Shown here: positions 37,624-39,605 of the stretch, piece after piece
Layout of the letters: every line of letters starts with the position of its first letter
Numbering within the stretch: the stretch's first letter is position 1
Origin: an uncultured Bacteroidota bacterium
GTDB lineage: Bacteria; Bacteroidota; Bacteroidia; Chitinophagales; Chitinophagaceae
Assembly: GCA_903851465.1 (NCBI GenBank)
Contig: CAINOI010000062.1
Coordinates: 1-64,000 of the forward strand
Reading direction: 5' to 3'
DNA length: 64,000 bases
Position numbers and translations under genes: made by a program
Notes under the pieces: model-generated
The model's database searches: none
Told to the model about the DNA's origin: nothing
Seen by the model: only the letters and a program-made list of their open reading frames with translations

Positions 37624-38199
37624 TTGAAAAATAATATTATACTATTATCCGCCTTTATGTTGTTTATTAGTTGTCAAAAAACAACTACTACAAATAGCAA
37701 CACAAGTGTTTCAAATATTGGAACAAGCCCAACTGTAGCTAACCAAATAAAATTCAGCGGAAATGGGTTTATTCATAATGGACTCTATCCTAAATTATAC
37801 ACATGCGATAGTTTAGGTGTTTCCCCTGGTTTGCAATGGTCTAATGCTCCAAGTACTACTACAAATTACGCCATTACGATGTATACTATACCTCCTACTG
37901 GAGATAAGCATGTATACCTAGTGCTTTATAATATTCCAGCTACAGCCATTTCCATACCTGACAATTCCAAATCGATTGGAATCTTCGGCATAAATACAGT
38001 GGATGGAAAAACGACCTATACCCCTCCTTGTTCTCAAGGACCAGGGGCAAAAATTTATGTTTTAACAGTATACGCATTAAATGCCCTACCCACTTTTTCA
38101 GTACCTTCTAACCAGGTTACCATGGCTATTTTACAAGCTAGTATGAAAAATAAGATTGTGGACAGTGCAGTCATGAGTGTCACTTATACAAGATCTTAA
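37624..38199 (+). CDS. PEBP-family (YbhB/YbcL-like) lipoprotein, TTG start
   Basis: Lipobox FMLFISC; Thr/Asn/Ser-rich linker; YTCDSLGVSPGLQWSNAP...VYLVLYNIPATAISIPDN...YTPPCSQGPGAKIYVLTVYAL. Confidence 0.82.
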   Translation: MKNNIILLSAFMLFISCQKTTTTNSNTSVSNIGTSPTVANQIKFSGNGFIHNGLYPKLYTCDSLGVSPGLQWSNAPSTTTNYAITMYTIPPTGDKHVYLVLYNIPATAISIPDNSKSIGIFGINTVDGKTTYTPPCSQGPGAKIYVLTVYALNALPTFSVPSNQVTMAILQASMKNKIVDSAVMSVTYTRS

Positions 38200-38201
38200 T
38201 T

Positions 38202-39605
38202 ATGAAAAATCTACACTACTTTTTTATTGCAACCTTGTTTTTATTAAGCACAAAAGCAATGGCCCACGAGGGCGGACATTATGCTAATGGTAAAGACATC
38301 GTTTTGAATACATGGAAGTTACAATCGGGCCAGTTGATTCAAGGCAATTTTTCATTTGCCAAAGATGATAAAATCTTTCTTGAACAAGAAGGTGGCCAGA
38401 TCAAGTCTATCTATATCAATGATCTAAGTGTTCAAGATCAAAAATTAGCAAGATTCAAGATTGCGCGATACGCACAATTAAATGATGCATATTTGAATAC
38501 AAGTCAGGATACAAGTTATCCTCTATCAAATTTTCTCCCATTATGCATCATCGGTTTATTATTATGGCTTGTTTACACATTCAATAAAGAACTGATTCAG
38601 ATTTATATTTTAAATTCAAAAATTGGGTCAGCAGCTTTTAGTGTGTGTTTTATTTTTTCCGTTTTAATTGCTTGTAGTAAATCAACCACTACTAATTCAA
38701 ATACGACGACGACTAACCCTATAGTGATTCCAATTACGGTGACCATCCCTAAAACTAGTTTTGGGTTTATGGATTCCGCATTTGCCGCATTTAAACCTAG
38801 TATTAGTACGAGCTGGGATGATACCTATTTTTATATTGCATCTACTGGAATACCTAATCACAATATGATGATTGGTATTACAAATTGGCAACAACAAGTA
38901 CCAATCACTCAACCATATAATGGAACAAATAGTTGGTCTATACCCTTACAACCAGCTTATGCAACCACTCCATTAAGTACTAAAACCAACTTAATGAAAG
39001 GGGCAGTTGCGGTGGCAGTGAATGGGATACCCATTTTTAATGCTTTAAATAATAGAGGAGAGGATTCTTATAAAATTGGGGAATTGGATAATTGGGGAGG
39101 GCATTGTGGAAAAGGGGATGATTATCATTATCATGCTGCACCTATGCATTTATCTACTTTAAATGGCCTCAAGCCTATCGCATTTGCAGTAGATGGTTTT
39201 CCGGTGTATGGATCAAAAGAACCTGATGGAGCGAGTATGATTGCCCTGGATACTTGTCATGGACATAATGGAACAAATGGCCTATATCATTATCATGGAA
39301 CAACGGATTACCCTTATGTAATTGGTGCTTTAAAAGGTAAGGTTACACTTGACCCAAATACAACTGCACCAGAAAATCAAGTGATACCACAAGCATTTAC
39401 AAAACCTGTTCGCCCAGCTACTAGTCCATTAAGCGGAGCAGCAATCACAGATTTTACAGCTGTAGGAACAAATGGTTACTTGCTAACTTACAAAAGAGGT
39501 GCTAAAAATGGATATATAAAGTATAGTTGGGATCTAAATAATAAATATACTTTTATCTTGACAGATACTTCAGGCAATGCTGTTACAAATACCTATCAGC
39601 GGTAA
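38202..39605 (+). CDS. Chimeric SHD1-like / TM / internal-lipobox / YHYH-domain protein
   Basis: N-terminal LNTWKLQSGQLIQGNFSFAKDDKIFLEQEGGQIKSIYINDLSVQDQKLA; internal SAAFSVCFIFSVLIAC-SKSTTTNSNTTTTNP; KGDDYHYHAAP and GLYHYHGTTDYPY. Confidence 0.8.
   Translation: MKNLHYFFIATLFLLSTKAMAHEGGHYANGKDIVLNTWKLQSGQLIQGNFSFAKDDKIFLEQEGGQIKSIYINDLSVQDQKLARFKIARYAQLNDAYLNTSQDTSYPLSNFLPLCIIGLLLWLVYTFNKELIQIYILNSKIGSAAFSVCFIFSVLIACSKSTTTNSNTTTTNPIVIPITVTIPKTSFGFMDSAFAAFKPSISTSWDDTYFYIASTGIPNHNMMIGITNWQQQVPITQPYNGTNSWSIPLQPAYATTPLSTKTNLMKGAVAVAVNGIPIFNALNNRGEDSYKIGELDNWGGHCGKGDDYHYHAAPMHLSTLNGLKPIAFAVDGFPVYGSKEPDGASMIALDTCHGHNGTNGLYHYHGTTDYPYVIGALKGKVTLDPNTTAPENQVIPQAFTKPVRPATSPLSGAAITDFTAVGTNGYLLTYKRGAKNGYIKYSWDLNNKYTFILTDTSGNAVTNTYQR

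Follow-up and report, generated by a model that had tools for sequence, protein, structure and literature searches.

A conserved lipobox inside an SHD1-YHYH protein of Bacteroidota suggests cleavage of the product into a membrane-anchored half and a lipoprotein half

The gene at positions 38,202 to 39,605 (forward strand) of the window, that is, of the whole 64,000-nucleotide stretch of DNA from an uncultured Bacteroidota bacterium that was analyzed, encodes a protein with a complete-looking lipoprotein signal at the junction of two modules. The strict conservation of this internal lipobox in dozens of distant relatives suggests that the product is cut into a membrane-anchored half and a lipoprotein half. 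In the reading that we favor, to which we assign a probability of roughly two in three, the gene would encode a polyprotein, and the split would take place at the inner membrane: SPase I would form the N-terminus, Lgt and LspA would act on the internal lipobox, and a YHYH lipoprotein would be freed.

Results

Architecture of the protein

The open reading frame (38202-39605, +) encodes 467 amino acids with no internal stop codon. The sole Pfam match of the product is the YHYH domain (PF14240; residues 244-339, E 4.5e-19, 69.6 bits vs a gathering cut-off of 25). With the aid of an AlphaFold2 model made from a 61-row family alignment (mean pLDDT 86.8), the protein can be divided into a signal peptide, an SHD1-like domain, a first transmembrane helix (TM1), a positively charged loop, a second transmembrane helix (TM2) with the lipobox, a low-complexity linker and the YHYH domain, in this order. 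The features of the gene and of its upstream neighbor are as follows.

37624..38199, +, PEBP-family lipoprotein gene with a TTG start (Pfam PF01161, E 3.4e-15), separated from the downstream YHYH gene by 2 nt
38202..38264, +, Sec signal peptide (residues 1-21), with SPase I predicted to cut between AMA and H22; AlphaFold2 helix 2-14
38265..38495, +, predicted periplasmic N-half: mature start HEGGH, then the SHD1-like domain (residues 37-98); beta domain and long helix in the AlphaFold2 model
38523..38582, +, TM1, residues 108-127; AlphaFold2 helix 108-127
38583..38621, +, short predicted cytoplasmic loop, the n-region of the internal signal; K/R-rich across the family
38622..38672, +, TM2, residues 141-157, the h-region of the internal lipoprotein signal; AlphaFold2 helix 140-158, ending exactly at Cys158
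38673..38675, +, Cys158 (codon TGT), predicted Lgt acceptor, with the predicted LspA cut immediately before it
38676..38759, +, low-complexity linker SKSTTTNSNTTTTNP..., residues 159-186; disordered (pLDDT <50 at 162-175)
38760..39605, +, YHYH half, residues 187-467 and stop; PF14240, predicted metal-dependent hydrolase; core pLDDT about 95

The positions that the preliminary description of this DNA had given for the signal peptide, the module, the transmembrane helix and the lipobox agree with the open reading frame and the model, and the presence of two modules in one frame is supported by the open frame, the Pfam YHYH match and the AlphaFold2 structure.

The SHD1-like nature that had been proposed for the first module is supported as well. 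The Pfam profile of SHD1 (SLA1 homology domain 1, PF03983) found 8 matches among 23 N-halves (best E 1.7e-5) and none in the window protein itself, and Foldseek aligns the N-half model with the SHD1 structure of SLA1, 2hbp (prob 1.00, rmsd 1.5 over 50 aa, TM-score (target) 0.66, E 0.097); Sm-like Hfq chains match too. Unlike known SHD1 domains, the N-half would be periplasmic, and it carries an invariant N-terminal His: at the SPase I site of the aligned relatives, Ala occupies position -1 in 95 of 100 rows and His position +1 in all 100. A second His, four residues further (AHEGGH, residues 21-26, at 38262-38279 of the window), is present in 73 of 78 rows without a T9SS tail vs 1 of 22 T9SS rows. 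The N-terminal His pair is a possible copper-binding site of the histidine-brace-like kind.

Relatives and age of the fusion

We scanned 84,980 genomes with the family alignment and kept the best 80 loci as nearest relatives; 78 of these encode both halves. The records come from Chitinophagaceae, Cytophagaceae, Spirosomataceae, Flavobacteriaceae and Saprospiraceae, with a single one from Ignavibacteria, and include isolate genomes, among them Emticicia aquatilis, Aquimarina pacifica and Flavobacterium sp.; the gene is described as one of freshwater Bacteroidota bacteria. The two halves are co-inherited: distances of the N-half correlate with those of the C-half (Mantel r 0.69, 0 of 2000 permutations). 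Among close relatives, dN/dS is 0.11-0.21 in the SHD1 part and 0.04-0.09 in the YHYH part. The fusion is old: purifying selection acts on both halves, and neither has been lost from the two clades described below (Cys and T9SS). A local chimera, a sequencing or assembly artefact or a decaying fusion, for which the frameshift between the halves in one MAG might speak, is contradicted by the common architecture of the 78 records including isolates and by the selection on both halves, and its probability is next to negligible; the local chimera and the artefact can be dismissed on these grounds. In that MAG (L099:7970-9312) the N-half and the C-half lie in different frames, through a frameshift or a sequencing error. 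In two other loci (L010 and L011, from G278 and G011) the match is restricted to the last ~130 aa of the YHYH gene and contains stop codons; these are decayed copies.

The preliminary description had envisaged a YHYH lipoprotein fused behind an SHD1-like membrane protein. The two modules, the SHD1-like character of the first and the lipoprotein signal stand; the local or recent event does not. It had further named, as the finding that would tell against it, a full-length architecture common to most homologs with a plain transmembrane helix at this place: the architecture is indeed common to most relatives, but the lipobox is conserved in most of them. With an N-half profile, no convincing separate N-half gene was detected in 298 family genomes, where all strong matches are frames joined to YHYH, apart from one at a contig end; a YHYH half alone exists in L128 (see below). 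As to the direction of the fusion, rooting with standalone YHYH lipoproteins that are ~33% identical places the outgroup on a very long branch (2.3 changes per site), which leaves two readings side by side: a lipoprotein gene may have joined behind a membrane protein, or a lipobox may have arisen in situ in a transmembrane hairpin.

Conservation of the internal lipobox

In the window protein, VLIAC (lipobox LIAC, ending in Cys158) is a canonical fit, so that the complete-looking lipoprotein signal claimed for the module junction is borne out by the motif and, in relatives, by conservation of the Cys. Cys158 is kept in 73 of 101 tree rows, in which the residue at -1 is always A (64) or S (9) and the remaining TM2 positions are variable (entropy 2.3-3.3 bits); 66 of the 73 fit a PROSITE-type lipobox pattern. 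Positions +1 and +2 are mostly K/S and K/T; the C-K/S-K preference is shared by N-terminal lipoproteins encoded at these loci. In the loop that precedes TM2, K/R far outnumber D/E (family means 3.15 vs 0.44), which gives TM2 the orientation of a lipoprotein signal. The control set, 868 other ORFs from related loci, yielded 52 internal Cys residues after TM-like stretches; the full signature was found in three, all of them ordinary N-terminal lipoproteins with an over-long ORF start, and no other internal lipobox of the Cys158 type is present among these ORFs. The internal lipobox of the window protein is thus more than chance.

The signal of the window protein resembles those of other bacterial lipoproteins, the substrates of Lgt and LspA, in its positive n-region, hydrophobic helix, LIAC lipobox and polar low-complexity linker. 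It differs in place: it occupies residues 141-158, behind an exported domain and a transmembrane helix, so that the Cys of the precursor is residue 158 rather than N-terminal; only L128 carries the signal at its N-terminus. Alternatively, two proteins could be made from one frame if translation also started inside the gene, shortly ahead of TM2, rather than by proteolysis; the C-half would in that case be made as an ordinary lipoprotein, the form seen in L128. An in-frame ATG 15-32 codons before the Cys is, however, found in 16 of 73 rows (0.22), below the background of 0.28, and none is suitably placed in the window protein, so that we regard internal initiation as highly improbable.

A natural fission and hairpin-less forms

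L128, from the same order, encodes no N-half: the gene starts with MPSLLKLYLFAFLLIYSVVACKKSEK... at the equivalent of TM2, and the product is an ordinary lipoprotein. Its YHYH core is nested inside the Cys clade, beside N-half-bearing sequences from Saprospiraceae (SH-aLRT 99). This form indicates that the internal segment is able to serve alone as an N-terminal lipoprotein signal. Three other proteins (L095, the first copy in L059, and L177) have SHD1 joined directly to YHYH without the hairpin, which indicates that function is also possible with the two halves left joined in a single compartment.

The hairpin-less fusions, together with the members that have neither the Cys nor a sorting tail (see below), are compatible with an uncleaved protein in which an inner-membrane hairpin would keep SHD1 and YHYH next to each other on the periplasmic side, with Cys158 kept for a disulfide, packing or metal. 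We consider this unlikely. The Cys is kept with A/S at -1 and C-K/S-K-S/T after it, as in the N-terminal lipoproteins encoded at these loci; in L128 this segment serves as the N-terminal signal of a lipoprotein; and the T9SS tail of the sister clade would be senseless on a domain tethered to the inner membrane. Even less probable, in our assessment, is that Lgt diacylates Cys158 without a cut by LspA, the acyl chains merely strengthening the anchor of the full-length protein. Lgt and LspA act in sequence, and LspA could be inefficient on an internal signal; against this, the restriction to A/S at -1 matches what cleavage needs, and the loss of the N-half in L128 implies no need for attachment.

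A sister clade with a sorting tail

One clade, comprising 23 of the 101 tree rows (SH-aLRT 100), has mostly Phe in place of Cys158, and nearly every member ends in a T9SS sorting tail. The T9SS type A sorting domain (TIGR04183) was matched in 7 of 9 Cys-less proteins tested. No match was obtained for L116, whose tail is of another kind, or for L140, which is tail-less and lies outside the T9SS clade. The tail of the Cys-less L116 is PKD-like, and L110:643-2199 is identical to it in sequence. The window protein, with its lipobox, contains no TIGR04183 domain, in contrast to the sister clade, whose members are tailed like type A cargo. In the set with class-level additions (123 full-length rows), Cys and tail never occur together (0 of 123): by pattern, 80 rows have the Cys without a tail, 30 the tail without the Cys and 13 neither, five of the last (L132, L137, L139, L141 and L176) being T9SS-like by eye; the absence of the tail from Cys-clade proteins is a matter of alignment and pattern. 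Given that the split between Cys and T9SS corresponds to a single branch, this exclusivity does not reflect many independent events. Five tree rows, from about three lineages, have neither device (L083, L103, L140, L142 and L143), so that neither is strictly required. A tail or a lipid anchor can move the YHYH half only if this half is severed from the transmembrane hairpin; hence both forms of the protein argue for processing.

Genomic context and possible function

The PEBP gene is a probable operon partner of the YHYH gene. In 55 of the best 80 loci, the BLAST family that contains the PEBP protein has a member adjacent to the YHYH gene or in its vicinity, always on the same strand; a stricter count by PEBP motif gives 39 of 72 loci with both neighbors covered. 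L059 encodes a one-frame SHD1-YHYH-PEBP fusion protein. The adjacent gene and the fusion link PEBP to the system. The likeness that had been noted between the linker of the window protein and the mature start of the PEBP lipoprotein (QKTTTTNSNTSVSN) holds at the protein level and fails in the codons, which differ (Ser AGC vs TCA, and several synonymous Thr/Asn changes). Copying of the linker from the PEBP gene was rejected in view of these differences, convergence being the more likely source; similar linkers are generic among lipoproteins of related loci.

Other neighbors recur. In 28 loci (L040, L048, L053, L059, L067, L069, L111 and others), metallophosphoesterase genes that resemble purple acid phosphatases are found no more than three genes away from the YHYH gene. 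SCO1-like genes with MORN-repeat lipoproteins (L052, L055, L056, L087, L088 and L099) and multicopper-oxidase-like genes (L070, L097, L098 and L100) are also found near YHYH genes, and possibly indicate a link to copper.

The C-half is a clear member of the YHYH family, in which standalone lipoproteins occur. These paralogs, ~33% identical, begin at their own lipobox, unlike the window subfamily with its SHD1 hairpin half in front; one of them is encoded in the genome of the window (L002, G000:C33:118022-118753; 33% identical). No PDB structure matched the YHYH fold at E<=0.001, a search of PHROGs gave nothing, and the one match among viral models (E 6.9e-8) was rejected for poor geometry (rmsd 22). 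For the YHYH domain, the activity of a Zn-binding hydrolase has been predicted (PMC7824862). The YHYH half might tentatively be viewed as a periplasmic or outer-membrane metal-dependent hydrolase that works with PEBP. The lipoprotein export signal of Bacteroidetes needs acidic residues directly after the Cys (PMC5080379); at least two D/E follow the Cys in just 13 of 73 Cys rows and none in the window protein (CSKSTTT), which makes a periplasm-facing lipoprotein more likely than a surface-exposed one in the organism of the window.

Discussion

The cleavage that we favor would proceed as follows. SPase I would remove the N-terminal signal peptide, leaving a periplasmic SHD1-like part whose N-terminus is His. 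TM1 and TM2 would form a hairpin around a positively charged cytoplasmic loop, and both sequence and model place TM2 like the signal peptide of a lipoprotein. Lgt would then lipidate Cys158, and LspA would cut before it; LspA normally meets N-terminal signals, and its access to an internal signal within a hairpin is an assumption. The YHYH half would be freed as a diacylated lipoprotein able to leave the inner membrane through Lol, while SHD1 and the hairpin would remain there. The freed half might act as a metal-dependent hydrolase together with the co-encoded PEBP lipoprotein, and translation from one reading frame would yield equal amounts of the inner-membrane partner and the exported lipoprotein. 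In the sister clade, where the lipobox Cys is replaced, mostly by Phe, the T9SS tail would deliver the YHYH half, a cut by SPase I after TM2 being assumed. With somewhat less confidence, though still as the better bet, we take the protein for a polyprotein matured by signal peptidase II, whose internal signal would at once be the second arm of a hairpin, a lipid attachment site and a release site; the sister clade would have exchanged the single Cys position, its T9SS tail taking over the sorting.

A partial precedent is fbcH of Bradyrhizobium, the precursor of cytochrome b/c1, where cleavage at an internal signal sequence turns the product of one gene into two proteins of the envelope; the cut, by SPase I, falls between two respiratory subunits. 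The present gene would likewise give two envelope products through an internal signal sequence of a single bacterial gene, with predicted cleavage; its internal signal is of the lipoprotein type, and its products are unrelated. In the open-licence literature searched, we found no description of an internal lipobox processed by LspA, and to our knowledge searches for lipoprotein signals are confined to N-termini. With an internal lipobox that is strictly conserved, a class of lipoproteins escapes annotation pipelines, and Lgt and LspA are probably able to act on the second helix of a hairpin. The exchange of the Cys for a T9SS tail offers an unusually clean natural experiment on the sorting routes of Bacteroidota, and the conserved link to PEBP places two enigmatic families, YHYH and the bacterial PEBP proteins, in a context that can be tested. 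If our reading is true, bacteria would use the lipoprotein pathway for polyprotein processing, whereby one gene supplies an inner-membrane protein and an exported lipoprotein in equal amounts.
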